Shown one piece after another: positions 20,408 to 54,165 of a stretch of 64,000 bases of DNA (positions are counted from its first letter, which is position 1; every line of letters begins with the position of its first letter). The stretch is from contig NZ_CP123897.1 in NCBI RefSeq assembly GCF_029910655.1, positions 4,701,547-4,765,546 of the forward strand, written 5' to 3'. Both the position numbers and the translations under genes were made by a program. Below the pieces are notes generated by a model that did no database searches, was not told the origin of the DNA, and saw nothing but the letters and a program-made list of their open reading frames with translations. The stretch is from Methylomonas sp. UP202. GTDB taxonomy: Bacteria; Pseudomonadota; Gammaproteobacteria; Methylococcales; Methylomonadaceae.

Positions 20408-21097
20408 TTAGCCCGCCAGCGCGTCAATGATCTTTTTGGCCAATTGCTTCAACAAGAATTCATCATCTTTAAAATAAAAATGACCTCCATCGAAATACGT
20501 AATATCAATCGGCTGCAAAGTCTCCAGTTGCCAAGCTAGCGCTTGCTCGTCGCTAACATTGTCATAGCGGCCTAAAAACAAATGTACGGGAATATCCAAC
20601 GCATTCTGCTTTTGATGACAATAAGTCTCTATCATCTGAAAATCCGATCGAATAATAGGTTCGAACAGCGACATGATTTCCTCATCCCGCCAAACCGCAT
20701 CCGGGATGCCACCCAGCTCTCGCAATACTTGCCTAAATCGCTGACTGGGCATTTTATGTTTTGGTTCGTCTTCGATCACGGAAGGCGCTCTACGGCCGGA
20801 TAAAATCAATTTCTTAGGTAACGGCATATTTTCACTATCGATCTTCCTGCAGAGCATATAAGCGATAAATGCCCCCATACTGTGACCAAAAAAGGCGTAA
20901 GGCCGTTGTAGGCTATCCTTGATCCGTTCGAAAAGGTAATCGGCCATTTCCTCGCTACAGGATATACACGGCCGCGACATCAGGCTGCCCCGCCCCGGCA
21001 ACGGCAGAACATTCAAGCGAATGCCGGTTAAACTATTACCCAACTCACGATAACAATGTTCGTTACCCCCGGCAAATGGAAATGCAAAAAGCTCCAT
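20408..21097 (-). CDS. Type II thioesterase (assembly-line editing)
   Basis: 229 residues, normal for a stand-alone type II thioesterase of the alpha/beta-hydrolase fold. Seen: FPFAGG at the N terminus, the nucleophile elbow GHSMGA near residue 88, an Asp region in GRYDNVSDEQ and a terminal GGHFYF His. Such enzymes hydrolyse stalled or wrong acyl groups from carrier domains and so keep PKS/NRPS lines running; they do not release the final product. The ATG has a strong GAGGAAGGA site directly upstream. It is the first gene of the left-hand operon (thioesterase, MbtH-like, three PKS) and sits behind about 550 bases without genes that contain a perfect palindrome and a long inverted repeat, so expression of the PKS half probably starts here. 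Confidence 0.94.
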   Translation of the reverse strand: MELFAFPFAGGNEHCYRELGNSLTGIRLNVLPLPGRGSLMSRPCISCSEEMADYLFERIKDSLQRPYAFFGHSMGAFIAYMLCRKIDSENMPLPKKLILSGRRAPSVIEDEPKHKMPSQRFRQVLRELGGIPDAVWRDEEIMSLFEPIIRSDFQMIETYCHQKQNALDIPVHLFLGRYDNVSDEQALAWQLETLQPIDITYFDGGHFYFKDDEFLLKQLAKKIIDALAG

Positions 21098-21646: not shown

Positions 21647-22960
21647 CTAAACCCGAGCCGGAGTACAGGTGACGTCGCTATCGGTTTCCGATAACGATAC
21701 CGCCAACGCACAATTGGCTTGCACATTAAGTGCGGTCACTATCGGATCGACAACGGGATCAATTGCAATGAGCAGAATGATAGCTACACTGCTCGGTAAT
21801 CCCAACGGATCAAGAATCATCGCGATCATACTCAAAGCCACCATACTCGGCGCACTCGACGAAGCCACGCCGGCCAGTATCGATCCCATAAAAATAATCA
21901 AAAGTTGCTCAAAACCAAGCTCCGCACCATAGATTTGCGCAATGAAAATGCTGGATATCGCAAATTGCAATACAGATGCCGGAGGATTGATCGTAGCCCC
22001 TAACGGAACAATCAAATCCGAAACATTTTCATCAACTTGCAAATTATCTTTCAAAGCAGCCAACGCGGAAGGAATAGTAGCGAAACTGCTAGCGGTACCC
22101 AACGCGACAATCATAGGCTGCCGCAATCCGGAAACCGTTTGCCAATAAGATAATCTGTGCTTTAATTTCCACCAAATAATTACACTGTAAACGATTATCG
22201 TAACCACGCATGCGATATAAATATATTGTATCAATTTAACGGTGGCCCAAACGATATCGATACCCACTTGGGCAATTTGTCCGGCAAATAGGCATAACAA
22301 ACCAAACGGCAATAAATGCATCATCCAGCCGATAATAGATAAAAACACATGGTAAAACGCATTCACTACCGCCAAAGCGGTTTTATTGGCTTCGGTATCT
22401 ATCATACCCATGCTAATACCGATCAGTATCGAAAAAAACAAAATTGCCAACGTGTCGCCTCTATCGAGCGAGCTAAAGATATTCTCCGGAATGATCGCTT
22501 GAGCATAGGAAAAAACAGTCGGCTTTTGGACTTCCGGCGGCGCCGTTACACTCAATTCTGAACGATTAATAGTCTTACCCAGCGTAACTTGGGCATCGTG
22601 TTGCAATCCGTCCCCAGGATGCCCAAGAACCCCGAACGCCACGCCTACGCTGCTGGCAATAACCAAGCCTAAAAACAAAAAACTACCCAGCCTCGAAAGC
22701 TGGCTTTTTTTTATGCCCGAAACAAACAAATTACCCAGACCGGATATCACTGCCGATATCAGAATCGGCAATACCAACATCTGCAGCAACCTTAAATATA
22801 AGGTACCTATCGGAAGCAGTTGCCCAGCTAACGACTTATCGAATATGCCAATAGCCACACCGGAAAAAACACCGCCAAAGATCACCCACGGACTCAGCAA
22901 CCAGTTTTTTTGAGGCTTAAATGAGGCTATTTTTAAAAAAAAACGCTTAAATAAACACAT
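21647..22960 (-). CDS. Divergent DAACS-type (glutamate/dicarboxylate:cation symporter fold) transporter
   Basis: 437 residues with the hydrophobic pattern of the SDF/DAACS family: several N-terminal membrane helices (IFGGVFSGVAIGIF, MLVLPILISAVISGLG), an HP1-like SSFATIPSALAALKD, a TM7-like LGATINPPASVL and a TM8-like IDPVVDPIVTALNVQAN. Known relatives (GltP, DctA, GltPh) import acidic amino acids or C4-dicarboxylates with Na+ or H+. Here TM7 NMDGT is replaced by NPPAS. In TM8 the Arg that binds the substrate carboxylate (GltPh R397) aligns with Val, and the last ion-binding Asp (D405) aligns with Asn, while the two earlier Asp are kept. Substrate and coupling are therefore likely to differ from the classical members. 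It is the last gene of the accessory block, 105 bases after the solute-binding protein gene. No clear ribosome site precedes its ATG. Confidence 0.85.
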   Translation of the reverse strand: MCLFKRFFLKIASFKPQKNWLLSPWVIFGGVFSGVAIGIFDKSLAGQLLPIGTLYLRLLQMLVLPILISAVISGLGNLFVSGIKKSQLSRLGSFLFLGLVIASSVGVAFGVLGHPGDGLQHDAQVTLGKTINRSELSVTAPPEVQKPTVFSYAQAIIPENIFSSLDRGDTLAILFFSILIGISMGMIDTEANKTALAVVNAFYHVFLSIIGWMMHLLPFGLLCLFAGQIAQVGIDIVWATVKLIQYIYIACVVTIIVYSVIIWWKLKHRLSYWQTVSGLRQPMIVALGTASSFATIPSALAALKDNLQVDENVSDLIVPLGATINPPASVLQFAISSIFIAQIYGAELGFEQLLIIFMGSILAGVASSSAPSMVALSMIAMILDPLGLPSSVAIILLIAIDPVVDPIVTALNVQANCALAVSLSETDSDVTCTPARV

Positions 22961-23065
22961 TGTTGTTAATAAATACCGTATTCCCTAGCGACGGAGGCTG
23001 CCCGCCCCCAATATGCAACTTAGATGGGAAATATATAAACAGCCAATAGATATAAAAATATCAAA

Positions 23066-23890
23066 CTACTGAATATTCGAATATTTCGCATTCAATTCCG
23101 ATATAAAATTATTTTTGGCGTGTTGGATGTATAAATTGAGCCATGCCAACAAGTGAGTATCCCGCCAGTTTACCGCCATCGCCAAAGTATCTTCGCTTTT
23201 CTTGATAAACTCCGACTTTAAAAACAAACTATCTTCAGGATGCTGCTTGCTCCAATTCATAACCTCTACTTCGTCATAAAGAAAAGCCAGCACTTTTGCT
23301 TTCTTGGTGTTTTCTATTCCTTCGGCCACACTGTCGTAACTAACAACCCCAGCCAGCGGAAATATTTTAGCGGCAAAGTCCACATAAGAACTGCCTTTTA
23401 AAACACCAATTTGGATACCGTTTTGATTTAATAATCGCTCGATTTGATTAAAGTCCGGATGATCCTTATATGCGGATAACTTCAGGCGGTTAATCAGCAG
23501 CGCTTGTCTCAGCGACCAATAGGGAACGGTAAAGCGCACCATCATCGCTCTATCCAAAGTATCGCTTAACGAGCTAATTCCGACATCCGCTTTTCCTTGG
23601 GCGATAATTTGAGCGACCTCGTCAAAAGTCCTGGCTTCTCTGTTTAAAACCAGCTTTACATTCAATTTTTCCGCGATATCTTGTGCGATTTCAATATCAA
23701 TCCCTTTAAGTTGTTGGTTGCTCACCCTCTCGCAAAACAGAGGCACGTCATCGTAATACATCGCAACGATTAATTCGCCGCGCTGTTTGATACGCATAAT
23801 GTCGGAAGGCATTAAGCTGGAATCGTCGGCAACCGCTCCAAAAATCATAAAAAACAGCGACAAAAACAATTTAAAATTTAAATGACGCAT
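23066..23890 (-). CDS. Periplasmic family-3 (amino-acid type) solute-binding protein
   Basis: Type-3 extracellular solute-binding fold: IMRIKQRGELIVAMYYDD, then GIDIEIAQDIAEKLNVKL, FDEVAQIIAQGKADVG and MVRFTVPYW are the usual landmarks. I place the start at ATG 23890, which gives a clean signal peptide (RHLNFKLFLSLFFMIFGAVA) and about 274 residues; this ATG overlaps the last 20 bases of the upstream outer-membrane protein gene, so the two are translationally coupled. An upstream in-frame start would add 30 residues without signal character. Such proteins normally deliver amino acids to an ABC importer, but no permease or ATPase of an importer is present nearby, so it may act as a sensor or as a binding partner of the barrel protein. 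Ligand unknown. Confidence 0.85.
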   Translation of the reverse strand: MRHLNFKLFLSLFFMIFGAVADDSSLMPSDIMRIKQRGELIVAMYYDDVPLFCERVSNQQLKGIDIEIAQDIAEKLNVKLVLNREARTFDEVAQIIAQGKADVGISSLSDTLDRAMMVRFTVPYWSLRQALLINRLKLSAYKDHPDFNQIERLLNQNGIQIGVLKGSSYVDFAAKIFPLAGVVSYDSVAEGIENTKKAKVLAFLYDEVEVMNWSKQHPEDSLFLKSEFIKKSEDTLAMAVNWRDTHLLAWLNLYIQHAKNNFISELNAKYSNIQ

Positions 23891-25274
23891 AAACCATAGT
23901 TTGAATCCACATTTCATTGCCACCGCCAAATACCTGCTTCCCGCCTTTGTTTGGGATAAATGTTTCGATGCCCGCGGCAATATCTACAGCGTCGCTTACG
24001 GCCCAATCAGCGACTAAATCAACTTCATTACCGTAGTCGGATGAACTGACACTCCATACCGCCGGATCGTCCAGCTGGTAATTCAAATAAATTAAATTAA
24101 CGGTAACGCTTTCAGTCGGCGACAACACCAATCTCGTAGTATTAGTGATAAGATCGGTATTATCAAATATAAACTCGCCATTAATTTCACCTTGAAACCA
24201 AGTGCCCCAAGTTTTAAACCCGAAATTCATGAAGTCAAAACCTCTTTGCATGTAAGCATAGCGATAACTTAGCGTCGGCTGCCAAGGAGTTTCTGAAAAA
24301 CGGTATTCAATTTGACCAAAACCGCCGGAAATGGATTTTTCACCCATATCCCCGTACCAATAAAGAGTCGGATTATTCGGATCAACGTCGGTTAACTTAT
24401 TGTTAAGCTGATAAACATATTCAGTGCTAATCGATAAATCAGGCAATTCATGCGGCAATGGCTTAAAGTCCAACCGAAAGTCATACGCATCGGTGACAGC
24501 AGTCAAACTGCCACCATAATGATCATCGTTAATATAGCTGAATCCGACATTAACAACATCCTTATAATTATATTCCATATTCATCCCTGTATATCTCTTC
24601 CGATTCTCCGGATTTCTGGGATTGTTTTCCAAATAAAAGCCTTCGAATTTCAGGCCTTTGAAGTTAATGCGGGCAATCAGTGTATTGACAAAGACCGTTC
24701 TCGAGCCTATCCAATAAGAACCTCGAAAACCACCATCGTCGGTACCGTTTGCCAATAACAAGCCGGTTCCCAACTTGTAATCTTGAGACCCGGCTGAAAA
24801 GTCAATCGCGTCCTGTCCCAATGCTTCAAATAATTTGCCGGACTTCCAGCCGATATGCATTTGTTCCGCCATCATCCATTCTTTAAAGTCCGGGTAAGGG
24901 GCATAATCATCTCTAGAGGAATGTGGGTGCCCCCTAAAAGTAATACCAGAAGGATCGTGTCCAAGCATCGCGCTATAAATCATACTAAAATCGCTGTATA
25001 GCTGACTGCCCTCGCCCAGATTCAGCCCCCCGCGTATTTCCGGCTCGAAAGTATGTTCCCAATAAATATTACTTAACTTATCCGCGCCAGGGTCTCCGGA
25101 GCGTTCGTTAATTTCCCCCAAGGCCGCCATTTGAACTTGCATTCTGCCGGAAAGAAAGCCATATTCTCCTTGATACACAGAATATTCCGCGCTTGCCGAA
25201 GACGCCGTCAGCGAAATAGTAATAAAAAAAATCCGCCGCCATGGATTTTGGTTTAAAAATGAATTAATCTTCAT
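23871..25274 (-). CDS. Outer-membrane beta-barrel protein, alginate-export-like porin
   Basis: About 467 residues starting at ATG 25274, which overlaps the stop of the Cys-rich gene by 11 bases. A signal peptide ends near SASAEY. The rest alternates hydrophobic and polar residues in strand-sized stretches rich in Tyr, Phe, Trp and Gly, and the chain ends in Phe (YASFKF), the usual C-terminal signal for outer-membrane insertion. Landmarks such as WEHTFEPEIRGGL, a central WYGDMGEKSISGGFGQIEYRF and FNTLIARI-like strands recall alginate-export-type or related anion porins, but I am only moderately sure of the family. Inferred role: passage of a small solute or of the cluster product across the outer membrane. 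It is coupled to the downstream solute-binding protein. Confidence 0.75.
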   Translation of the reverse strand: MKINSFLNQNPWRRIFFITISLTASSASAEYSVYQGEYGFLSGRMQVQMAALGEINERSGDPGADKLSNIYWEHTFEPEIRGGLNLGEGSQLYSDFSMIYSAMLGHDPSGITFRGHPHSSRDDYAPYPDFKEWMMAEQMHIGWKSGKLFEALGQDAIDFSAGSQDYKLGTGLLLANGTDDGGFRGSYWIGSRTVFVNTLIARINFKGLKFEGFYLENNPRNPENRKRYTGMNMEYNYKDVVNVGFSYINDDHYGGSLTAVTDAYDFRLDFKPLPHELPDLSISTEYVYQLNNKLTDVDPNNPTLYWYGDMGEKSISGGFGQIEYRFSETPWQPTLSYRYAYMQRGFDFMNFGFKTWGTWFQGEINGEFIFDNTDLITNTTRLVLSPTESVTVNLIYLNYQLDDPAVWSVSSSDYGNEVDLVADWAVSDAVDIAAGIETFIPNKGGKQVFGGGNEMWIQTMVYASFKF

Positions 25275-25872
25275 CTTCAGGCGTGCTTGTTGCAGTATAA
25301 CCAGCTTGATTGCTCGTCCATTCCATGCAAACATAATCTACGGAAAACTCGGTGGGCAGCGTAATTTCCAATAACTCTTCCGGCGACATTTCCAATACAG
25401 CCTGATTGTCGAATTTATATGGAAACGGTTTATAACCAACGAAATCGCGACTTAACGCGACAATTCGCTTTAAGGTACCTGGAAAACGCTTTTCCCACGC
25501 TAACGCGGCTGTCTGTACCGAACGCATTTTATCGATTAAATATTTATTGGGAATTGGGCACTTCCGATGATCGGCAACTAAAAACTTTGTCGCTGTTTCA
25601 TTTGCCGGAAAAAGCGGGTACCAAGAACAGTCCATAGGCTTAAAATCCCCGTTTTTACAAGGCTTTGAACATATAGCGTGAAGATTGTCTTGAAAAGCCA
25701 AATGATCGGTTTTCAGATCTACTTCGCCAGCCAACTCATATTCACCAGGCAACAGCATAATCCAATTACCACCGCGGAATTTACAGCAGGCGTATCCGCA
25801 GAGCGCTTGGCGCTCCATGCATGCCGAGAAAACACCGTCATCATTTAAAACTGTATTTCCCGTGTTGTACAT
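25264..25872 (-). CDS. Cys-rich protein of unknown function, possibly metal-binding
   Basis: 202 residues without signal peptide or membrane segment. The N-terminal half is rich in cysteine: CMERQALCGYACC around residues 18-31, then CSKPC and DCSWYPLFP around 88-105, and CPIPNKY further on. Arrangements of this kind resemble YkgJ-like zinc/iron-chelating or Fe-S proteins, which is only a resemblance. The C-terminal tail is acidic (PEDED). The gene begins 70 bases after the small membrane-protein gene and its stop overlaps the start of the outer-membrane protein gene, so it belongs to the accessory operon. No function is assigned. It could be a redox or metal-handling cytoplasmic partner of the transport proteins next to it. 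Confidence 0.7.
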   Translation of the reverse strand: MYNTGNTVLNDDGVFSACMERQALCGYACCKFRGGNWIMLLPGEYELAGEVDLKTDHLAFQDNLHAICSKPCKNGDFKPMDCSWYPLFPANETATKFLVADHRKCPIPNKYLIDKMRSVQTAALAWEKRFPGTLKRIVALSRDFVGYKPFPYKFDNQAVLEMSPEELLEITLPTEFSVDYVCMEWTSNQAGYTATSTPEDED

Positions 25873-25942
25873 AAACCGCTATTGACCTATTTAAGCAATG
25901 CCATAACCGAGGATGAATAAATGTGTAACAGTTAGATATTGA

Positions 25943-26110
25943 TTACTTATCCTTCACGACATCCGAAGCGCATAATAAAATTATTCCGATGAATGGGGTG
26001 AACAGCAAAGAACCGAATAAATACCCCCAAAAGCCAAACTTTTTATTTCTCCCCAAAAACGCGATAAACCAGCTGACAAGCACATAAACTAGCGAAATTA
26101 CGATTACCAT
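25943..26110 (-). CDS. 55-residue small membrane protein
   Basis: An ATG at 26110 follows the stop of the LivJ-like gene by eight bases and has a strong AGAGGGG site six bases upstream. The reading frame gives MVIVISLVYVLVSWFIAFLG, a short basic turn (RNKKFG), a second hydrophobic stretch ending IIGIILL-like, and a charged end VVKDK: two membrane helices with a basic loop. The coupling to its neighbour and the ribosome site make it a real gene despite its size. I do not recognise a family. Small two-helix proteins often regulate or stabilise larger membrane complexes, and the SPFH and anchored binding proteins encoded just upstream would be candidate partners; that is inference. Confidence 0.72.
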   Translation of the reverse strand: MVIVISLVYVLVSWFIAFLGRNKKFGFWGYLFGSLLFTPFIGIILLCASDVVKDK

Positions 26111-26118
26111 AAACCCCT

Positions 26119-27306
26119 CTATTCGACCAGGACAAAACGCCCATCAACTATCTGCTTGATATATATTTCTTTATTGCTAGCCAAGCCATTTTTGTCAAAA
26201 AAATATCCGCCGTAACCTTGCGCGTAACCATATTTCAACGTTGAAGCCACTTGAATAGGGTTGCTGCTCCCGGTCTTTTGAATAGCATCGGCTAAAACCC
26301 GTATCGCCTCGTAGCCCTGATAAGCGCTATAGCTACCCTCTACGCCATATGTGCTCTTGAATTTTTCGTTAAATTCATTTTTTCCCGAAAAAATCGATGC
26401 TACATAGGTTTGATTCGCAGTTTGGTTAGACCAATCCCATATTTTTAGGATATCCAGACCGTCCCCTCCAATAATCGGCTTATTAACCCCCATTTCACGC
26501 AATTGCTCAATCATTTTAGCCGCATGCTCTTCCGCAGCCGCCATCACAACCGCGTCAAAATCCTTATTCATCAAATCGTAAATCATTCCTTTATAATCGG
26601 ATTGCTCCACGAAAAACGATCGAGCGGCTACGATTTCCAGCGGTGGCTCAACTTGGGCGGAAAAACGCTGATACAAATTTAAACCATACAAATTCCTAGA
26701 AAATACCAGCAAAAGCTTATTCCAGTTTCTTTCCTTAGAAAATTTAATTAATTTACCAACAAAAAATTCCTCGGTTGGAATAATGCTAAAAGTATATATA
26801 AAGTTATGCTCCGTCAACAAATCAGCAGTGGCTGCCGTAGAAATGAATAAAATACCGTTATATTCGTAAGTAATCGAGGCTGGTATTGCGGATGCCGAAG
26901 AAGAATGCCCTACGACCGCGACAATTTTATGATCCTCCGCGATGCTTAGCCTCGAGTCCTGCGCACTATCATCAGTCGTATCGTCATACTCGTGAATAAC
27001 CAATTTAGCCTTAACCTTTTTATCATCCAATTTAAGCACAAGCCCTTGTTCATTTACTTCCTTTACGGCAAGGTTAACGCCATCCATAAAAGCTCTATCG
27101 CTGTCCAGCCAAACCGCTGCGACATGAATCTCGCCATCCCCTTGATTAGCAATGTCCGAACGCGTATTCAACGAATAGTCGTAGGTTAATGTGTACGAAA
27201 AAAAGCCTCTGTAAATTCCAAAAGAAATACCGAAAAATAATACAACGTGAAAAATGGTCCGTAAAGTTGCCTTTATATTTCTAAGTATACTAACCTGTAT
27301 GCGCAT
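26119..27306 (-). CDS. Membrane-anchored LivJ-like periplasmic binding protein
   Basis: 395 residues. An N-terminal hydrophobic segment (about residues 17-38, after basic residues) has no obvious cleavage site and probably anchors the protein in the inner membrane. The rest is a type I periplasmic binding fold of the branched-chain amino-acid/leucine-binding kind: a core beginning HVAAVWLDSDRAFMDGVNLA, VAVVGHSSSASAIPAS, ILFISTAATADLLTE, KLLLVFSRNLYG, PIIGGDGL and YSAYQGYEAIRVLADAI. Such proteins bind small polar ligands, for ABC importers or, when anchored, for sensing. No Liv permease genes are present. The ATG lies two bases after the SPFH gene stop, so the two are surely co-expressed. Confidence 0.85.
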   Translation of the reverse strand: MRIQVSILRNIKATLRTIFHVVLFFGISFGIYRGFFSYTLTYDYSLNTRSDIANQGDGEIHVAAVWLDSDRAFMDGVNLAVKEVNEQGLVLKLDDKKVKAKLVIHEYDDTTDDSAQDSRLSIAEDHKIVAVVGHSSSASAIPASITYEYNGILFISTAATADLLTEHNFIYTFSIIPTEEFFVGKLIKFSKERNWNKLLLVFSRNLYGLNLYQRFSAQVEPPLEIVAARSFFVEQSDYKGMIYDLMNKDFDAVVMAAAEEHAAKMIEQLREMGVNKPIIGGDGLDILKIWDWSNQTANQTYVASIFSGKNEFNEKFKSTYGVEGSYSAYQGYEAIRVLADAIQKTGSSNPIQVASTLKYGYAQGYGGYFFDKNGLASNKEIYIKQIVDGRFVLVE

Positions 27307-27308
27307 CT

Positions 27309-28130
27309 TTATTGCCCGGACTCACCACCAATGATAATAGGCAATTGATTACCGCCATTACCAATAATGACAGTTTTCGCATTATTCGATTCAGCTAATG
27401 CACGCGTCGCCTCTATACCCTTCCATTTCAAAACGTCATTATTCAAAGATTGACTGATTCGAGTATTGTAGTTATATATCCCATCCGCCTCGATTTTCTT
27501 TCTTTCCGCCTCCTGCGTTTCTCTCGCCAACTTATATTGATAGGCTTCGGATAATTGCTTCTGCTCGATCTTTGCCTCAATTGCATCCTCGACTTGTTTG
27601 GGTAAGATTACTTGCTGTAAAACAACATCCTGAATATAAATGTAATTTTTTTCTACTTCGGACGCCGCTTGAACGATAATGTTATGCAGACTTTCCCCTT
27701 TGGTCGTATAAATATCACTAACAGAGGTTTTACCGGCATGTACCCGAAGCGTATGATCAACTTCCGGTATAACAATTTTTTCCAGGTAATCCGGTCCAAT
27801 TTTTTGATGCAATATACCGACCGAATCACGCTCCGGATAGTAGCGTATCGAAACTATAAGCTCTATTCTTAATCCTTCTTGAGTAAGCACCGAGAGTGAG
27901 TGTCCTTGTTGCTGAACCCTAGTGTTGTAAATCGCCATAGAGTTCCAAGGAAAAATTATGTGGAACCCTTCCTTATACACTCTATCGGTAACGGTACCGC
28001 CAGCGAACCTCTTATATAGAACGCCCGCCTCACCCGCCTTGATAGTAATAAACATCGTCTGATAAAAATACGCAACGACTAATAAAACAATAATCGTAGA
28101 GGTGATTACGGCAGGTAGAAAGCGCTTCAT
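27309..28130 (-). CDS. SPFH-domain protein, prohibitin family
   Basis: 273 residues: one N-terminal membrane helix (about 7-28), then the SPFH core (ITIKAGEAGVLYKRFAGGT, YKEGFHIIFPWNSMAIY, VLTQEGLRIELIVSIRY, VDHTLRVHAGKTSVSDIY), and a charged coiled-coil stretch (about 185-225, KIEQKQLSEAYQYKLARE). The C terminus is short and glycine-rich. Prohibitin/HflK-C-like proteins assemble into large rings or cages on the inner membrane that organise lipids and enclose membrane proteins or proteases. This gene starts the tight accessory operon and sits just after a strong terminator, so it probably has its own promoter in the region 28131-28186. It may scaffold the anchored binding protein and the small membrane protein encoded next to it. 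Confidence 0.88.
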   Translation of the reverse strand: MKRFLPAVITSTIIVLLVVAYFYQTMFITIKAGEAGVLYKRFAGGTVTDRVYKEGFHIIFPWNSMAIYNTRVQQQGHSLSVLTQEGLRIELIVSIRYYPERDSVGILHQKIGPDYLEKIVIPEVDHTLRVHAGKTSVSDIYTTKGESLHNIIVQAASEVEKNYIYIQDVVLQQVILPKQVEDAIEAKIEQKQLSEAYQYKLARETQEAERKKIEADGIYNYNTRISQSLNNDVLKWKGIEATRALAESNNAKTVIIGNGGNQLPIIIGGESGQ

Positions 28131-28259: not shown

Positions 28260-28748
28260 TCAGGCAGTTACTTTTTTAGCGTCAGAGGATGCCGCCACGG
28301 CTTTACCCTCTTTAAATTTTTCGGAATAGTAGGCTCTAACTTGTTCTGGGTCGAATGTCAGAAAAGTACCGCCCGATTCAAAATGTTGAATAAAGACTTT
28401 ACCAACCGCATAAGTCGAGGCACCGGCAATCAACGGCAAACTCACCGCACCGACCGTTGAACCGACAACCGGTATCGATTTAAATAAACTCATGACCAGT
28501 GGCGTTACCGAAGTCGGAAAGCTACCACCTATTAAAGCGGCCAAAGCATTTTTGCCCTTACCCTCCATAAAAGTCACGCCATAAAGATGGCTTAATCTTC
28601 TCAGCATCTCCAGTTGTATACCGGATACCGCCAAAAAATCAAAAATAGGCACTGGCACTAAACCAGCAGCCATCGAAGCATACATGCTTTTCTTTACCAA
28701 ATCATGAGCAGCATCTATTGCATTATCAGTTTTTACTAAGTCAGTCAT
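28260..28748 (-). CDS. DUF697-type membrane-associated protein
   Basis: About 162 residues from the ATG at 28748, which has AGGTG nine bases upstream; an earlier in-frame ATG at 28781 would add 11 residues. The pattern AHDLVKKSMYASMAAGLVPVPIFDF, LEMLRRLSHLYGV, GGSFPTSVTP, SIPVVGSTVGAVSLPLIAGASTYAVGKVFIQHFESGG is that of DUF697 (the YcjF-like hydrophobic module often attached to dynamin-like or Era-like GTPases). It contains two or three hydrophobic hairpins and no GTPase domain of its own. Biochemical role unknown. It is transcribed alone, between the lipoprotein gene and the terminator, and is probably membrane-associated. Confidence 0.8.
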   Translation of the reverse strand: MTDLVKTDNAIDAAHDLVKKSMYASMAAGLVPVPIFDFLAVSGIQLEMLRRLSHLYGVTFMEGKGKNALAALIGGSFPTSVTPLVMSLFKSIPVVGSTVGAVSLPLIAGASTYAVGKVFIQHFESGGTFLTFDPEQVRAYYSEKFKEGKAVAASSDAKKVTA

Positions 28749-29169
28749 TACATCACACCTCGGTAATTTGCGAAAAATCAAACCTCACTGCTATTCAACA
28801 AATCGATACATCGATAGCAAGCAAGACGAAATATTACAATTCATGACAAAAGGCGGTGTACGCATAACAGAATGCAACCGAACATTGCCACGACTCCTCT
28901 ACAATAAGCAACCCAATACCAATTGCTTAACACTTTTATTCAAACTATCAATATCAAACCTCCTTCAGAAACAGCCACTTCTAAAACACCACCAGTATTT
29001 TCCATTCTTTAAAATGCGAAAGATGGAATAAAAACCATGCTCCAGATATTGCCAATCGTTACTACCAAATATTGATATCCTCCATTAGAGAGAGAATTTA
29101 AAATATAACCTCCATACTTTAGAAACAACTCAATAAATTCGGTTTTATATCGATTGCGATGTATTGACC
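28749..29169. other. Gene-free stretch upstream of DUF697
   Basis: About 420 bases, rich in A+T, with no convincing gene. It probably holds the promoter of the DUF697 gene on the minus strand. A near-palindromic pair ATCGAT-AC-ATCGAT lies at 28802-28815, about 55-67 bases before the start. Several GGAGG-like hexamers (minus strand, about 28960, 29080 and 29110) are not followed by usable reading frames. Confidence 0.4.
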
Positions 29170-30400: not shown

Positions 30401-32065
30401 TTATGTATTAACGTTTTCTTCTTCCCTCAGCTGCCCCATGTCGACAACCAATAAGCGGTCACAATGGGTAAAATATTTTTCGTCGTGAGTAACAACAATC
30501 ACGGTCTTTTGTTTTTCCTTCAACTTTTGCAAAATAACATCATAAAAAAACTGACGAAACTCTGGATCTTGGTCGGCAGCTACTTCATCGAACACATAAA
30601 TAGCTTTATCTTCCAAGAGAGCAATTACCAAGGCCAAACGTTTTTTCTGCCCGGTCGATAAATTAATATTGGTGAACCTGCCATTCTTGAAGCCGGTTTT
30701 CTTCTCCAAACCCATTAGAATCAAATATTCGTTGACCATTTCGACATCAACATTTTTCTGCCCGTAAAATCGGTCAAATAAATGAAAGTCGGTGAAAATA
30801 ATCGAAAAAAGGCTTCTATAATCAATCAATAAGTCATTTCCTATGGTCTTATTGTCTACGATGATCGCGCCCGAACTCGGCTCGTATAAGCCCGTCACCA
30901 GCTTAAGAATAGTCGATTTTCCGCTACCGTTACCGCCACGAATAAAAACAAGCTCGCCTCTGTTCAAGTTCAAACTGAAGGGGCCTACAGAAAACGGCCG
31001 CCCCTGGTCTGTGTTCGGATAACTAAAATATAGTTGACTGATGGAAATCCGATTAAAATAATCCGGAGAAACAAACGCGCGTTGTCCACTTGAAACACTT
31101 TCCTGCGCGACATTCAATTGCGACTCCAATTGATGCAAAAAATCGATCGCCACATTCGCTCTAGCCATGCTAGGAACCATATCGATAATGACGACGATGG
31201 GCCCCATGATAAAAAATATAATCGTAGTGATCGACATAATTTTATCGGCCGTTAAACTACTTAACTGCGGCAATAAAAACACAACCGATGCCATTAAAAT
31301 ATAAAAATATAACTGCGCATAAAGTTGCAAATTGACATTACTAATGTCGGTCGACACATTATTCCGCCAAGCTTCTTCCGAAACCTGCCTCATATAATTG
31401 CCATATAAGTCATCCGTCTTTTCCCGGTTGATCTTCAGTTCCTTAAAGCCGTCCAACACATGTTGCATATAAGCAAAATATTCATTATCTTTTTCCATGG
31501 CTTGTTGCATCGAAACGCTGATCGATTGAACGAGGACATAAATACTTATCATGGCGCCGGCGATACAGACCAAGGCCATCATCAACGCCATCTTCGAAAT
31601 CGTCGCCATATAAATGAAAGAGCAAATCAACATCACAGTAGCTGGAACACCTTCGGCAAGTCGATGCGCCGCTTGGGAAATCAACTCGGTCTTTTCCGAT
31701 AACAACGAAAGAATCTGCGACTTGCCTATAGACTCATAAGACAGAAGCTTTATTCCTCGCAACAAATACAATACGCGTGTTCTATAATCAAAAATTCCAC
31801 CCTGTACTAACTCGGTGATCCTATGCGTCACATAACGCTTAGAGACAAAATATAAAGCCACCGACAACACAAATAAAATGAATAAACGTTCGTCCAAATC
31901 CGGCTTATCAAAGTCTTTTGCCGCGGCATTCAAGATTACCAACGTCAAAGCGTTAATAATCCCCGATATTAACGCGGAAGAAACCAATAAAAATTTTTTT
32001 TCTTGGTTTTGTATATTTATAAATTCCAACAATTTAGGCCGAAACAGGCCCAATTTTCCCGTCAT
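30401..32065 (-). CDS. Cyclic-peptide/siderophore-type ABC exporter (SyrD/PvdE-like)
   Basis: 554 residues with a membrane domain fused to an ATPase domain, as in the half-size exporters SyrD and PvdE. Membrane domain about 1-330 with several hydrophobic helices. ATPase domain: Walker A GGNGSGKST near 380, Q-loop region FTDFHLFD, signature LSTGQKKRLAL near 470, Walker B AIYVFDEVAADQD near 490 and switch His in VVVTHDEKYF near 530. Members export nonribosomal peptides from cytoplasm to periplasm as homodimers. The gene starts seven bases after the hydroxylase gene, at the end of the NRPS operon, so it almost certainly exports the product or its precursor. The TGQ in the signature in place of SGQ or SGG is usual for this subfamily. 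Confidence 0.92.
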   Translation of the reverse strand: MTGKLGLFRPKLLEFINIQNQEKKFLLVSSALISGIINALTLVILNAAAKDFDKPDLDERLFILFVLSVALYFVSKRYVTHRITELVQGGIFDYRTRVLYLLRGIKLLSYESIGKSQILSLLSEKTELISQAAHRLAEGVPATVMLICSFIYMATISKMALMMALVCIAGAMISIYVLVQSISVSMQQAMEKDNEYFAYMQHVLDGFKELKINREKTDDLYGNYMRQVSEEAWRNNVSTDISNVNLQLYAQLYFYILMASVVFLLPQLSSLTADKIMSITTIIFFIMGPIVVIIDMVPSMARANVAIDFLHQLESQLNVAQESVSSGQRAFVSPDYFNRISISQLYFSYPNTDQGRPFSVGPFSLNLNRGELVFIRGGNGSGKSTILKLVTGLYEPSSGAIIVDNKTIGNDLLIDYRSLFSIIFTDFHLFDRFYGQKNVDVEMVNEYLILMGLEKKTGFKNGRFTNINLSTGQKKRLALVIALLEDKAIYVFDEVAADQDPEFRQFFYDVILQKLKEKQKTVIVVTHDEKYFTHCDRLLVVDMGQLREEENVNT

Positions 32066-32072
32066 CTTGTTG

Positions 32073-32972
32073 TTAACTTTTTTTAAATTGATAAATAAAC
32101 CGATTAAAACGCAACACCCATCGCCAGGGAAACAAATTCATCGCTTGGATTACAAAGCCCCGTATCGTTTGGAAACGGCGGCGCCAAGGCTTCACTTTCC
32201 AAAAATGATTGCAGGAGCATACATAACCTTCACCTTGCGCAATAACCTCGTGCCACCATTGAGTCGGTATAAACAAGAGCTGGCCGGGGCTTAGTACCAC
32301 CTCAAACCGATCCGCGGCCGCCTTACTAAAATCGGGATAGGCGTCAAGATCGGGGGCTAGGCTATTCACCTGACTCACCCAGAATGGTAGAACATCGTAA
32401 AATCCAAATGGGTAAAGATGCTTGCTTTGTTTCGGCGGATACAAAACCACTCGTTTTTCGCCGTGCATCATGATCAACGTACCGTCGCCGGGATCGAAAT
32501 GCATCGGTTCGACATGGCCAGAAGCTCCTAACCACAAATTTAACGAAGCCTCCGGAATAATCGGCTCGAATCCTAAGGTTTCAGTTAAAAACCGCATTTC
32601 ATCGGCAATCGTTTTGACGGCCTCGCTATCGCCGATAGGGTTTTGCGCCAAATACAAATTCCTGGATTTTGCACTGCCATCGCGTAAATGCGCGGCAAAA
32701 TCGCCCATCGTCATCTGAATATGGTCACAATACTTCGTCCATTCTCTTCTCGGTGCATCAAAATGGCCCGATCCGTAATCGCGTACTTGAAATTTCCGTC
32801 CATCTAAATGCTTACATAAAAAATCCAGATCCCAATCGACGGTTTCGGCCAAAAAGTCCGTGATAACCAGCGGTTTTCCGGGAACTCGATATTTCCGATT
32901 GAATTCTTCCCGGTTTAATTCGGCAACGCTTAAACGATCGATGGGTTTGCCAGCACTGGGTGCATTAGTCAT
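32073..32972 (-). CDS. JmjC/cupin-like Fe(II)/2-oxoglutarate hydroxylase
   Basis: About 299 residues. The Cupin_8/JmjC core is visible: VEPMHFDPGDG with the HxD iron ligands near residue 170, HGEKRVVLYPP, then GQLLFIPTQWWHEV with the second iron His near 245. The Arg or Lys that would bind 2-oxoglutarate lies in the strand between them (KRVVLYPP is a candidate). Relatives hydroxylate carbons of proteins, peptides or free amino acids. In this place, between the terminal NRPS and the exporter, a beta-hydroxylation of an amino-acid residue of the peptide is the likely job. I prefer the ATG at 32972 (GAGGGAAG just upstream), overlapping the NRPS stop in ATGACTAA; an ATG at 32984 would add four residues. 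Confidence 0.85.
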   Translation of the reverse strand: MTNAPSAGKPIDRLSVAELNREEFNRKYRVPGKPLVITDFLAETVDWDLDFLCKHLDGRKFQVRDYGSGHFDAPRREWTKYCDHIQMTMGDFAAHLRDGSAKSRNLYLAQNPIGDSEAVKTIADEMRFLTETLGFEPIIPEASLNLWLGASGHVEPMHFDPGDGTLIMMHGEKRVVLYPPKQSKHLYPFGFYDVLPFWVSQVNSLAPDLDAYPDFSKAAADRFEVVLSPGQLLFIPTQWWHEVIAQGEGYVCSCNHFWKVKPWRRRFQTIRGFVIQAMNLFPWRWVLRFNRFIYQFKKS

Positions 32973-35900
32973 CACTTCCCTCATGGGCTTCGGATTGCTC
33001 TAACATTTCTTTGATCAAGCGAGCGATGTCCCCGACGTGCGGCGGCTCCATCATATTTTCATGTTGTCCCGGCAACCAACGTAAATGAAGTTGCAAGCCT
33101 GCCACTTGTCCCCAAGCCAGATAATCATCCGCGCTGACACGCCGACTACCGTCCCGGGCCCGGATCAAAACCACGGGCGCTTCGATCTTTGGCGGGAAAT
33201 AAACCATCTGTAAATTACATCGGCAAACGTTGAAATAACGTTCGATGGCTTCGTTGTCCATCGCCCTGGGAACGAATCCCGCCTGCTTAGCTTGGCTAAA
33301 CACTTGCGCCAATTGCTCCGCTCTCGGCAACCGCCTCAATCGCTCGCTCTCGAAACCCAATGCGGGAAATAACGCGACCAATAGTTCGGCATCGTCGGTG
33401 TTTTGCGCCGTTTCGGCCGTCAACGACGGATGCGCGGTATCCAGCAAAGCGACGAATTCGACCTTGTCGCCGTTTTTCTCCAATTGCCGAGCGACCTCAT
33501 ACGCCAAAAGCCCACCAAAAGAATAGCCTAACAGCCGATAATGTCCCTCCGACTGAACAGATTTAATAAACGGCAAGTAATAAGACGCCAATTCCGGCAA
33601 TTGCGTGATAAGCGCTTGCTCCGACTCCATGCCCGGCGCTCGCAGCCCGTAGACCGGCAGGTCTTCGGGCAAGGATTTAGCCAAGTCGTTATAACAAATG
33701 ACGTGTCCCCCGACGGGATGAAAACAAAACAATGCCGGATTTTCCCCTTGGCGCTTTAAAGGAACTAAGGGCGACCACTCCGGCGATAGCACATTGTCGT
33801 TCAGTAACTGGCTTAACGCCGAAATCGTCGGGGCCTGAAAAATAGTAGCTAGGGGTAGCGCTTTACCGAAGGCCGACTTGATTTGAGTCATCAAGTCCAA
33901 GACCAGCAAGGAATGACCTCCCAACGCGAAAAAATCCTCATCGACCGAGACTTCCCGGTCAATGTCTAGAATCTCTCGCCAAATCGCCGCCAGCGTCTTT
34001 TGTACGAACCCGGTAGGCGACATCTCCGGGGACAAGGAGAGCTCCAATTCCGGTTCGGGTAAGGCCTTCCTATCGATCTTCCCGTTTGCCGTCAGCGGCA
34101 GATGCTCCAAAACGACAATCGCCGAAGGCACCATGAACCGAGGCAATTGCCGTCGGGCGACATCCAGCAGGCGGGTTTCCAGCACTTGTCCAGCGGCAGA
34201 TGCAATATAAGCCACCAATTTCCGGTCGCTGGCAGCCGCTTCACCGACCGTCAAGACGACGCAATCATCGACACCGGCCACCGATTTTAAAACCGCTTCA
34301 ACTTCGCCCAACTCGATGCGAAACCCTCTGACCTTAACTTGGTGATCCAAACGGCCGTGATAAATTAGCCGACCTCGGTCGTCGTAGCTCACCAAGTCGC
34401 CCGTCCTATATAGCCTTGCCCCCGCTTGTGCGCTAAAAGGGTTGGGAACGAATTTTTCCGCGGTCAACGCCGCTTTGGCGTGATAGCCACGCGCCAAGCC
34501 CATGCCTCCCAAGTACAACTCGCCCGGCACGCCCGGCGGCAAGGGCTGCATATAGGCATCCAGCACATAGGCGCAGCTATTGCCGATTGGGCGCCCGATA
34601 CTGGGTTGGGCATTCACCTGGCGCAAGCAATACGTCGAATACGTCGTATCTTCCGAAGGCCCGTATAAGTCGTACACTTCCTTGATGTGCGGTTTCGCGT
34701 ATAGCCTATCGACCAATTCTCTGGACAACGGCTCACCAGCCAAATTAACCGTTGTTACCGTATCGGGTATCGCATCGGCTTTCATCAGTTCCTCCGCCGC
34801 GGACGGCACCGTATTGATCAAGGTCGGAACACACTCCGGGCATTCCACCAATTCGAGCACGTTACGCAATAAAACCAAGGTTCCGCCACTGGCGAGAGTC
34901 AGGAAAATTTCGAAGACCGATAAGTCGAAACAGATCGAGGTACCGGCCAACACTCGACTCAATTGTTCAGGTCGATAAACGCTTCTAGCCCAAGCGATCA
35001 TGGCCAAGGCATTAGCATGAGTAATCGCCACGCCTTTGGGTTTGCCGGTCGAACCCGAGGTATACAACACGTAAGCCAGATTTTCGGCTCTTCGCTCGGG
35101 CAAGACCTGAACGCCGATCTCCGGCAAGGCTTGATCCAACAGAATTTTGGAGGCCCCAGCCAGCCCCGGAATGGCGTTGGCTAAATCCAACTCGGTCAAT
35201 AACAGCAAAACCTTGGCATCGGCCAACATATGCTCCAGTCTGGCACTGGGGTAATCCGGATCTAACGGCACATAAGCCGAACCGCTTTTAAGAATCGCCA
35301 ACATCGCAACGATCAAACGCGGCGAACGCTTTAAACAAACCCCAATCAACACCTCCGGGCCAGCTCCGAGACTCAGCAACACATTCGCCAAGGCATCGAC
35401 GCTATCGCTTAGTGCTTGATAACTGAGTTGAACATCGCCCTGAACCAAAGCGATTTGGTCGGCGGCATTCGCGACACTCCGCGCGAATAAATCGTACAAA
35501 CCGGCGGCGGCACCGAACGGCATCGCATTTCGGTTCCAATCGACAACAACTTGCTTGTACAACACCTCGTTAATCAGTGAAAAATCGCCGACCCGCTTGT
35601 CCTGTCCACCTGGGAGTTGCTCAAACAAATACGCCAGTCCGTCGCACAATCCTTGCACTTTATCGGCCTTGAACAAATCGGCGTTATATTCGAAAGTGCC
35701 GATTAGGCTATTCCCACTCTCGTGCATTGCCAGGGTCAAATCGAACTTCACGTCTCTGCTGGCCAAAATCAGCGGCTCAATAGTTAAGCCATTCAATTCA
35801 GGTGTTTGCCGCGCGCCATGATGAAAAAGAAACATCACTTGAAACAAAGGCGTGCTTGAAAGATCGCGTTCAGGCTGTAAAGCTTCGACCAGTTTTTCGA

Positions 35901-38900
35901 ACGGCAATTCTTGATGGGCAAACGCGTCGATCACCGTCGCCTTAACTTGCGCTAAAAACGCCGACCATAATGGATTGCCCTGGATTCGATTCCGCAATAC
36001 CACGGTATTCGCGAAGAAACCAATCAAATTTTCGGTTGCCCGGTGACTACGGTTGGCAACAGGCGTACCGATGCCGAAATCGTATTGGCCGCAATACCGC
36101 GCCAAAAATAGATTGAAACCGGCCAACAACAAGACAAAAACCGAACAGTGTTGCCGTTCGGCCTGCTGCTTTAACGCCGACGTCAGCTTCGCATCCAGCG
36201 TAAACGACGCACTTTGCGCGCGAAACGTTTGGATTGCGGGACGCGGGAAATCGCTAGGCAAGCTCAAAGCCGGCGGCATATCCGCCAGGGTAGTCCTCCA
36301 ATAAGCCAATAATTGCTCCAAGCGCCTGGAATCCAGCCTATGTCGTTGCCAGACTGCGTAATCCTTGTATTGAAGCGATAAAGCCGGCAAATCGGCCTCA
36401 AGCGCCGACCGGTACAAAGTCAGCCACTCTTGCATGAATACGCTTTGCGACCAGCCGTCGGATATGATGTGGTGGTTATTAACGACCAACCAATGGCTTT
36501 GCGCGCCGGTTTTTACCAGCGCGATGCGGATCAGCTGCAAACGGTCCAAACGGAACACATGTCGGCTTTCTTGCGCCAGCAATTGCTCCAATTTCGACTG
36601 CTGCGTTGCACCATCCTCCGAAGACCAGTCCAGACTTTGGAAGGGTAACGGGGTGGCAGGCAAGATTTTTTGCCTCGGCCGAGCATTTTTCAGCACGAAA
36701 ACGGTGCTCAGGCTGTGATGCCGCTGAATAATCCGATCAAAGCAAGCTTGCAAGCGCTCGACATCCAAGGCGCCGCCGATGCTCAACGCAATCAGCATGT
36801 TATACGCACTGCTTTCGGGATATAACTGCTGTAAAAAATACAAGCGTTCCTGAGAAAAGGACAGCGGATAATCGTCGGCGTCGGCCGCGACGCCTAACTC
36901 AAAACCGTGTTCCCGCCCGCTAGCGTCGATTGCATCGGCCTGTTGTCGCAAGGTCGAATGCTGAAATAAGGTTCGGACATCGAGTTTGACTGAAAACTCG
37001 CTGAGAATACGGTTGGCCAACTGCATGGCCAACAGCGAATGTCCACCCAATGAGAAAAAGTCGCTATCCCGACTGGCCCGAACCCCTAATAACGCCTCCC
37101 AGATTGCCGCCAACTCCATTTCGGTAGCAGTCGCCGGCGGCTCCTGCGAAACCCCTTGTTGATAATCCGCCGCATCCGGCTCGGGCAGGGCTTTATCGTC
37201 GACTTTGCCGTTTGGATTCAGCGGCAGTTCCGGCATCTCGACCAAGGCCGCCGGCAGCATATAAGCCGGCAATTGCGCTTCGAGATAGCGGCGAAGGTCC
37301 CGAACGTCGATCTGCCGCCCAGATATAGCACTGAAATAAGCAATCAGGCATTTCCCTTGTCCGGCGATCTCTTTGACCCGAATGTAACTCTGCTTGATTG
37401 GCGGATAAGCGTTAACCGCCGTTTCGATATCGCCCAATTCGATACGGAAACCCCTGATCTTCACCTGATGATCGGCTCGGCCAACGAACTCGATCATGCC
37501 CACGGCATTCCAGCGGACGCTATCGCCACTGCGATACATGCGCTCGCCAGGTTGACAGGAAAAAATATCCGGCACGAATTTAAGCGCCGTCTCCGCGGCT
37601 TGATTCAAATAGCCGCAAGACAAACCCTCGCCGGCAATGTAAAGGTCGCCAACGATCCCCTCGGGTACAGGCCTAAGCGCTTGATCCAATACATACAGAC
37701 GAGTGTTTGCCAAAGCCGAGCCGATAGCGACGGTTCGCGCGTTGTCGCCGACCGTTTCGATCTCATACCACGAAGAAAAACTGGTACCTTCCGTTGGCCC
37801 ATAAACGTGTAAAAAGTGCTCGGGCTTGCCATGCTTCAACACTTTTTTGACCTGTTCGGGATCAACCAACTCGCCACCGAACAATAAATACCGCAAGCCT
37901 AAAAAAGCATCGGCCCGCTGCTGCACCATTTGATTAAACAGCGCCGTCGTCAAAAACAACGCGCTAATCCGGCTTTGGCGTAAAAAATCGACAAACCGGT
38001 CGGTAGACAAACTCGTATCGCGGTCGGCAATTTCCAGACTGGCACCGTTCAGCAACGCCCCCCAAATTTCAAAGGTCGCCGCATCGAATGCGGTATTACT
38101 GACCTGCGCGATTCGGTCAGTCGGTTTCAAATCGATATAATTGCTGTTCAAAACGAGTCTGGCGATGGCCAAATGCTGAATGCCGATGCCTTTAGGCACC
38201 CCGGTAGAACCTGAGGTATACATCACATAGGCCAAGGCATTGGCCGGCACGGCAACGGCCGGATTCAAGTTTGGATAACCCAGCAAATCCAAGCGGTCCA
38301 ATATCAATAGTTTGGCCTCGCCGAAGACTTGTGCGTTATCCTGCAAGGCGCTTTCGCTCAACAGTAGCTCGCAATCGGCTTGCCGGTACATCGCCGCCAG
38401 TCGCTCCAGCGGATAAGCGGTATCGAGCGGTAAATAGGCCGCGCCTGTCTTTAAAACCGCCAGCATCGCGACCACGCAATCGCAGCCTCGCTCCAAATAC
38501 AATGCCGCCAAATGGCCCGGACTCAACCCTTGTTCGAGCAAAAGAGAAGCTAATCGATTGGCCCGCTCGTCCAGTTGACGATACGTTAAGCGGCGCTGCC
38601 CATGAATCAAGGCCGTCTGTTCGGGCCGCTGTTCAACTTGTTTTTGAAAATGTTGAACCAAATTAAGCCGGCGAGGAAAAGCGCTGGCGCAATTGTTCCA
38701 GTCGTAAATAATGCGCTGGTAATCTTCGGCGGACAATAAATTGATGTCCTCGATCAACACCTCCGGCTCAAGGACAACGGTATCGAGAATACGCAAGTAT
38801 GATTTCGTCATTCGCGCCAGGGTTTCCGGCAGAAACAACGCGGTCGCGTACTCAAACAAACCGCTGAAAGACTGGCCTTGCTCTTGTATCGACAGGGTTA

Positions 38901-40167: not shown

Positions 40168-40182
40168 AAAACCAAAACCGCC

Positions 40183-43458: not shown

Positions 43459-43476
43459 GGTGATGCTCCTCTAACG

Positions 43477-45480: not shown

Positions 45481-45509
45481 GCTAACTCCTCTTTTGTTGT
45501 TTCATCCGT

Positions 45510-53186: not shown

Positions 53187-53265
53187 GGTACAAATCCTAT
53201 TTATTATCTAATATTCAAGATGACCGACATTAAAAACCGAAACACATTCCGGATGGTTTATCTCG

Positions 53266-54066: not shown

Positions 54067-54165
54067 AGATTTCGTCCACTTTTAATTTTAGATGCTTGAG
54101 TTCGCTCTTGAAACAAACACTCTATTAAGGCCAAAGGCTAAACAAAATAAAAACGTTAAAGCGGT

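Follow-up and report, generated by a model that had tools for sequence, protein, structure and literature searches.

The window analysed here is a stretch of 64,000 nucleotides from Methylomonas sp. UP202 (G000:C1:4701547-4765546, from a genome of 5.68 Mb in two contigs), and this work concerns a block of seven genes that lies inside a gene cluster for nonribosomal peptide synthetases and polyketide synthases (NRPS/PKS). The block consists of two separable modules. Set A is an SPFH protein, a LivJ-like binding protein and a 55-residue membrane protein; set B is a cysteine-rich protein, an outer-membrane barrel, a family-3 solute-binding protein (SBP3) and a transporter of the SDF fold. We believe, though we would put it a little below an even chance, that the block is a two-module envelope section of the NRPS/PKS cluster, in which set A would organise export and set B would serve the inward import or sensing of a ligand. 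The seven genes share the minus strand and run in this order:

27309..28130, minus strand: SPFH / Band_7 protein of prohibitin type (set A); PF01145 E 1.2e-22, prohibitin-2 profile match, hydropathy
26119..27306, minus strand: LivJ-like periplasmic binding domain with an N-terminal transmembrane-like anchor (set A); PF13458 E 3.4e-23, hydrophobic 13-31
25943..26110, minus strand: 55-residue membrane protein (set A); two hydrophobic segments, homologs elsewhere
25264..25872, minus strand: Cys-rich protein of 202 residues (set B); eight invariant cysteines, no transmembrane-like segment, no known family found
23871..25274, minus strand: outer-membrane barrel, alginate-export-like, 467 residues from ATG 25274 (set B); homolog names and PF13372 in distant homologs
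23066..23890, minus strand: lone family-3 solute-binding protein SBP3, 274 residues from ATG 23890 (set B); PF00497 E 5.5e-18
21647..22960, minus strand: SDF-fold transporter/symporter without NMDGT, TM8 Arg or last TM8 Asp (set B); PF00375 E 3.4e-75

The genes are packed very closely. Gaps of 2, 8 and 70 nt separate the SPFH, LivJ-like, 55-residue and Cys-rich genes, the Cys-rich gene then overlaps the barrel gene by 11 nt and the barrel gene overlaps SBP3 by 20 nt, and 105 nt separate SBP3 from the SDF gene. The barrel and SBP3 most likely start at ATG 25274 and ATG 23890, not at the starts of their longest open reading frames (ORFs). Nine loci were examined for these overlaps, of which one (L036) gave nothing testable. 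The barrel/SBP3 overlap of 20 nt is identical in 8/8 testable loci, and the Cys-rich/barrel overlap is 11-14 nt in six of eight, the other two having a gap of 4-5 nt. Given this conservation across loci, both overlaps exceed chance. The tight run of six genes and a symporter that the initial annotation described is therefore confirmed in its coordinates, and its overlaps are conserved elsewhere. Promoter-like and terminator-like sites are about as frequent in the region as in shuffles (24 vs 26.9; 18 vs 15.5), so they are uninformative on transcription units. Band_7, Peripla_BP_6, SBP_bac_3 and SDF are the domains above Pfam cut-offs in the block; the 55-residue, Cys-rich and barrel proteins match no Pfam family at E 0.001. 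It had also been claimed that the block contains no ABC importer. This part stands, since there is no importer permease or ATPase beside the binding-protein genes of the block and the sole ABC protein is of exporter type. The block is not free-standing, however: upstream on the same strand are a DUF697 gene, a lipoprotein-like gene, an ABC exporter of the YojI/PvdE type, a cupin gene and then the NRPS genes.

Ten named loci with the Cys-rich gene were compared for gene order. All seven genes occur in order in L027 (Methylomonas koyamae R-45383), L031 (Methylomonas STC_4) and L034 (Methylococcaceae Tobar13m). The first of these is conspecific and holds the same cluster at 98.5-100% protein identity, so the gene order on which the idea of a single system depended is found in two further loci besides a conspecific one. 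The Cys-rich, barrel, SBP3 and SDF genes stand together in L028, L030 and L033. The first three of them are followed by a contig end in L029 and L035, where the L035 barrel lies in two frames; L036 has the Cys-rich gene and part of a broken barrel, and L032 the Cys-rich gene alone. Genomes with the Cys-rich gene carry the SPFH type in 6/11 cases, against 36/226 for the others (p 0.005); without the genome of the window the figures are 5/10 vs 36/226 (p 0.016).

The most informative relative is Methylobacter FW305_bin.9 (L028/G374), whose cluster is syntenic with the window and with 31 kb beyond it at 65-89% identity. The synteny runs from a PKS gene at 15.9 kb to another at 107.6 kb of G374:C110, and the first two PKS ORFs of the window have counterparts there at 66-69%. 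Its exceptions are a 266-residue gene of the window (53266-54066) that is unmatched and an extra ORF of 628 residues between PKS genes of Methylobacter. In Methylobacter the position taken by set B in the window, between the thioesterase and the 55-residue protein, is occupied by a phosphopantetheinyl transferase gene. Set B of Methylobacter is found past the last PKS gene, on the opposite strand and about 65 kb from the SPFH gene, and reaches the end of the contig. In the genome of the window the cluster ends at the PKS gene that matches the last one of Methylobacter (4796133), with housekeeping-like genes, judged by eye, behind it. One orthologous cluster therefore holds set B at two places. 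The suggestion that the block is an unrelated insertion finds no support, and we reject it because of the ordered recurrence in L027, L031 and L034 and the synteny with Methylobacter.

Other genes adjoin the Cys-rich gene in two of these loci. VgrG-like ORFs, judged by eye, lie directly upstream of it in L035 (L035:291-2250), and three ORFs resembling the methane monooxygenase genes pmoCAB, also judged by eye, end about 0.7 kb before it in L029 (L029:6321-9292).

The transporter of set B is its most unusual member. It has the SDF fold over its full length (PF00375 at 25-424; an aspartate transporter in the PDB at E 1.1e-42), like GltPh and GltTk of the SDF/DAACS family, and it keeps the Asn of transmembrane segment 7 (TM7) and the Asp, Thr and Asn of TM8. 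We take the kept positions D394, T398 and N401 (GltPh numbering) to be substrate contacts. In contrast to GltPh and GltTk and to the canonical sodium-coupled members generally, it reads NPPAS in place of NMDGT and has Val and Asn where the TM8 Arg and the last TM8 Asp are expected. The Asp of NMDGT is a ligand of Na3 and the last TM8 Asp a ligand of Na1, according to the available parts of PMC5110648 and PMC8431971, so the acidic ligands of both sites are missing in the protein of the window. Among the 120 listed of 1060 SDF homologs, in which three rows are gapped, only four (P0249-P0252) keep NMDGT, the Arg and the Asp together. The TM8 Arg is kept in some other listed homologs of the spirochaete and Variovorax branches. 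In a tree of 56 rows (the window and 55 homologs drawn from the 120 listed, fused proteins being cut to 470 residues) those four split from the other 52 with an SH-aLRT of 100; several branches are long.

This SDF type travels with a binding protein. The pattern PLGxTINPP occurs in 13/237 genomes of the family, and in the phylum sample in 2/398, namely the window and a chance match; G681 was considered as a case outside the family and rejected, the pattern there sitting in an ORF of 2093 residues. SBP3 is close to 10/13 of these NPP-type SDF genes, with L186 and L188 cut by contig ends. A Variovorax SDF query at E 1e-40 found 4/259 genomes in a phylum sample, one being that of the window; L194 has SBP3 directly upstream of SDF, and L195 has two such pairs. 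P0231 is a fusion of SDF and SBP_bac_3 above the Pfam cut-off; in the tree it is closest to P0230, a Spirochaeta protein. Eight of nine other long SDF homologs have weak C-terminal SBP_bac_3 matches below the cut-off and one has none. The pair is thus adjacent in methanotrophs and in at least two other Pseudomonadota genomes, and fused in a spirochaete branch of the tree. Arg114 and Asp206 of SBP3 (116 and 208 in the aligned sequence) are invariant in 9/9; presumably they bind the carboxylate and amino group of an amino acid.

A solute-binding protein is therefore linked or fused to a secondary-transporter protein without an ABC ATPase, in the 10/13 NPP-type loci, in P0231 and in L194 and L195. 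Tripartite ATP-independent periplasmic (TRAP) and tripartite tricarboxylate (TTT) transporters are similar in that a binding protein appears to serve a membrane protein that has no ATPase. They use other membrane folds and other families of binding protein, the membrane proteins being DctQ/DctM and TctA/TctB, whereas the window pairs SBP_bac_3 with the SDF fold. None of the ten proteins scanned had a Pfam match to the TRAP or TTT membrane proteins, and the membrane partner is the SDF protein. We tentatively propose a new class of binding-protein-dependent system, a proposal that is possible but may well be wrong: SBP_bac_3 would work with an SDF fold lacking acidic sodium ligands, accompanied in methanotrophs by a porin and an eight-cysteine protein, and recruited to NRPS/PKS clusters for product recapture or feedback. 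If SBP_bac_3 truly feeds or switches the SDF protein, the binding-protein-dependent secondary transporters would gain a type other than TRAP and TTT, and it would become clear how an elevator-type transporter can work without acidic sodium ligands. The open literature, among the matches listed, yielded no description that we recognised of the block, of the set of SPFH, DUF697 and anchored LivJ-like proteins or of the SBP3-SDF pair, in a search that left subscription papers mostly outside; the available part of PMC11964084 does not mention these genes.

The Cys-rich protein has 202 residues with eight invariant cysteines, and hydropathy gives it no transmembrane-like segment. It is rare. A collection of 5.8 billion proteins gave 47 homologs (232 candidates scored), and all the named organisms are methanotrophs. 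Within the family it occurs in 12/237 genomes, one of them with a fragment (E 9.3e-5), and in the class sample in 2/274, namely the window and one weak match. It is small and Cys-rich like the YkgJ/CxxCxxCC family (PF03692), and two homologs bear the name Fe-S-cluster containing protein, but it has no PF03692 match at E 10 and the profile comparison was negative, so we reject membership. Its confident predicted model found no match in the PDB in the comparison made. The protein is probably metal-binding, and it is a separate target for study.

The barrel has relatives in 37/237 genomes of the family. It resembles AlgE in that distant homologs carry PF13372 and one close homolog is named alginate export; it differs in that the barrel of the window has no Pfam match itself and that none of its neighbours was recognised as an alginate gene. 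In L111-L118 the barrels are of a divergent form (40-46% identity), and at several of these loci large sensor-like genes are adjacent or close by; the barrel of L111 adjoins a histidine kinase (Pfam). In L109 a second alginate-export-type barrel with PF13372 (L109:13088-14467) lies beside SBP3 and SDF, so this locus holds two barrels and two SDF genes.

The SPFH protein of set A has its Band_7 domain behind one N-terminal transmembrane-like segment (Pfam; hydropathy), the arrangement of the prohibitin branch, and the best PDB chain for its profile is prohibitin-2 (8rrh, E 8.6e-17). This likeness to the prohibitin and HflKC cages does not extend to the neighbourhood: the block has no gene for FtsH or an HflK/C partner, and the gene is linked instead to an exporter and a binding protein. 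The LivJ-like protein also has a single N-terminal transmembrane-like segment (hydrophobic 13-31, by hydropathy), and the 55-residue protein has two hydrophobic segments and homologs at 57% in L031, 61% in L034 and 72% in G374. This SPFH type is found at E 1e-10 in 42/237 genomes of the family. We surveyed 37 loci in 35 genomes, a sample from which the seven genomes with the weakest SPFH matches (E 1.6e-13 to 7.9e-11) were set aside. A LivJ-like gene lies within 3 kb in 27 of the 37; within 8 kb there is DUF697 in 29, a YojI-type ABC gene in 18, lipoprotein relatives in five and the Cys-rich gene in four. TolC-type genes (OEP) are close to SPFH in L031, L133, L142, L173 and L178, and SPFH is directly flanked by NRPS/PKS genes in L141 and L146. 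Longer LivJ forms occur elsewhere, with TSP_3 domains in L138 and L144 and OmpA in L144.

The exporter upstream of the block scores 277.4 bits against TIGR01194 (cut-off 286.2) and 344.6 against PRK10522 (cut-off 604). It appears to share with PvdE and YojI the exporter type and a place beside NRPS genes, but the exporter of the window type travels with SPFH, mostly together with DUF697 and the anchored LivJ-like protein. An SPFH-superfamily protein in the vicinity of a nonribosomal-product exporter has a precedent. For Tba, which is the ABC transporter for balhimycin, a glycopeptide, proximity labelling detected a paraslipin, and the authors propose that Tba sits in a membrane microdomain with biosynthetic enzymes (available part of PMC11960670). 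That work concerns an actinomycete, and the same part of the paper mentions no anchored binding protein, DUF697, porin or SDF protein. Set A would, if our reading is correct, provide a genetic handle on SPFH proteins beside nonribosomal-product exporters.

Several neighbours of SPFH are of interest in their own right. Fusions of Peripla_BP_6 to MscS-like channel domains lie close to SPFH-LivJ pairs (L132:6144-9041, L143:2129-4900) and are candidate ligand-gated channels of mechanosensitive type. A row in L148 (5154-10834) holds SPFH, a LivJ-like gene with ABC_sub_bind, a lone SBP_bac_3 and a protein of 647 residues with a C-terminal ammonium-transporter domain; this is a further lone binding protein next to a channel-type protein. 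An exported-looking protein of 430-440 residues is found near SPFH, ABC and DUF697 genes (L144:5623-6927), with similar-looking ORFs in L138, L139, L142 and L147; it matches the acyl-CoA:6-APA acyltransferase PF03417 weakly, below the cut-off, and its L138 counterpart does not. DUF697, the YojI-type ABC gene and SPFH form a triplet in L172-L176, which in L173-L175 is beside RND/OEP-like efflux genes (the OEP of L173 by scan, the others by eye) and in L172, L175 and L176 is within 10 kb of PKS/NRPS genes.

The link of both sets to NRPS/PKS genes goes beyond this one cluster, and supports the suggestion that the block is connected with the product. Megasynthase matches are present in the fetched stretch of 5/10 Cys-rich loci (4/9 without the conspecific), against 0/18 control barrel loci (Fisher p 0.007); the controls, L109-L126, lack an intact Cys-rich gene, some are short contigs, and the L126 genome has a Cys-rich fragment. 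NRPS/PKS genes lie within 10 kb in 14/37 SPFH loci, or 12/35 without the window and the conspecific (p 0.004 vs 0/18). The rows are related genomes, so these Fisher values and the binomial ones overstate the certainty. Condensation domains number 20 in the genome of the window, at three places, and 2.1% of the bases lie within 10 kb of one, a figure that counts NRPS condensation domains and excludes PKS-only stretches. An NRPS and an asparagine-synthase-like gene, the latter judged by eye, adjoin set B in L030 and all seven genes in L034, and lie about 2-5 kb from LivJ-SPFH in L133.

From this gene order and these domains we infer a mechanism, with its protein contacts, its direction of flux and its ligand, along the following lines. 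Set A would most likely assemble into a cage like that of prohibitin, on the periplasmic side of the inner membrane, which may gather the product exporter and the membrane-tethered LivJ-like binding protein. Set B most likely brings an amino-acid-like ligand inward, with the porin admitting it and SBP3 binding it; the non-canonical SDF protein would then import the ligand or report its presence, and the Cys-rich protein, probably binding metal, would act in the cytoplasm. For the present cluster, candidates for the ligand are the product itself, pieces of it or a building block, and the outcome may be recapture or feedback.

A number of observations weigh against this reading, in addition to the relatedness of the rows and the narrow base of the 2.1% figure. 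The Cys-rich gene is absent within 8 kb in 33/37 SPFH loci, some of them cut by contig ends, set B lies without set A nearby in several loci, and the Cys-rich gene of L032 stands alone. Since SPFH and set B loci are mostly separate, joint action of the two sets is not obligatory. The block recurs, but the single functional system of the initial annotation becomes two modules that need not be paired. NRPS/PKS genes are missing within 10 kb from 23/37 SPFH loci, many on short contigs, and from the fetched stretches of L029, L031, L033, L035 and L036, which hold set B wholly or partly. No LivJ-like gene is within 3 kb in 10/37 SPFH loci. The NPP-type SDF gene of L185 has no SBP3 or barrel nearby, and no SBP3 was seen in L196, where SDF is at the contig start. 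Finally, the idea that the barrel simply takes the place of TolC is weakened by L031, where both the barrel and a TolC-type gene are present.

Uptake or sensing, immunity and delivery across the envelope, the roles originally suggested, are not decisively told apart. Sensing without transport is the strongest rival, and we consider it unlikely but well worth keeping in view. It says that set B is a signalling receptor, in which SBP3 and a transport-dead SDF protein signal the presence of an amino acid-like ligand to regulators in the cytoplasm. That the SDF protein lacks the acidic ligands of Na1 and Na3 (roles as given in the available parts of PMC8431971 and PMC5110648) argues for it, and so do the regulatory genes at related loci: a gene for a Ser/Thr kinase lies immediately in front of set B in L033 (by Pfam) and in L036 (by membership of the same blastp cluster), and another is beside SBP3-SDF-barrel in L121; L109 is flanked by SpoIIE, RsbW-type (PF13581) and Na/H exchanger genes, and L185 has SpoIIE/RsbW/STAS look-alikes, identified by appearance. 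There is also a precedent in GlnH-GlnX-PknG of Corynebacterium and Mycobacterium, where a lone SBP_bac_3 senses through a membrane protein to a kinase (available part of PMC9769921). The likeness lies in a lone SBP_bac_3 before a membrane protein and a kinase beside the relatives of set B; the same source does not describe GlnX as an SDF protein. The block of the window, however, has no kinase or SpoIIE gene itself, and a dedicated porin and kept substrate-contact positions are suited to transport.

We find it rather improbable that set B is instead an export route, in which the barrel would release a periplasmic product as AlgE does with alginate and SBP3 and SDF would handle a by-product. 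Some barrel relatives are indeed named alginate export or carry PF13372, and TolC-type OEP genes occur at some SPFH loci that lack set B (L133, L142, L178, L173), but L031 has both OEP and the barrel. Barrel, SBP3 and SDF also stay together in L109 and L121, where the stretch has no NRPS/PKS gene, and in L187, with a barrel fragment, which suits the uptake of a common small molecule. Immunity, by which the block would clear or sequester the producer's own product from the envelope, fits the position inside the cluster and the linkage to several cluster types. We nevertheless regard it as improbable to a high degree, because both sets also occur away from NRPS/PKS genes, the Pfam and NCBIfam matches of the block include no known resistance family, and the type of SBP3 and SDF points to small amino-acid-like ligands. 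Least probable of all in our opinion is that neighbourhood is the whole story and that ordinary nutrient genes gathered where clusters accept insertions. The different places of set B in two homologous clusters and the several loci with no cluster nearby speak for it; the absence of NRPS/PKS genes near all 18 control barrel loci and the seven-gene order with coupled overlaps, kept in three different contexts, speak against it.

The other features of the window, among which the two-module envelope section is set, are as follows:

28260..28781, minus strand: DUF697 protein, commonly found beside this SPFH type; PF05128
29170..30285, minus strand: lipoprotein-like protein of no assigned family; lipobox-like Cys25 (by eye)
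30401..32065, minus strand: YojI/PvdE-type ABC exporter (cyclic-peptide type); PRK10522 E 1e-102, TIGR01194 E 2.3e-82, both under curated cut-offs
32073..32984, minus strand: cupin-like (Cupin_8) protein, probably a tailoring enzyme; profile scan
20408..21097, minus strand: free-standing thioesterase of the cluster; PF00975
1..20116, minus strand: the PKS genes of the cluster, in three large ORFs; 66-72% to the cluster of Methylobacter
32965..63968, minus strand: NRPS/PKS portion, including a carbamoyltransferase (43477-45480); the cluster continues past the window to about G000:C1:4796133

The 266-residue ORF at 53266-54066, in the NRPS part, has no Pfam match at E 1e-8 and no homolog on the Methylobacter contig. 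The carbamoyltransferase gene (PF02543, PF16861), also inside the NRPS part, suggests that the product is carbamoylated.

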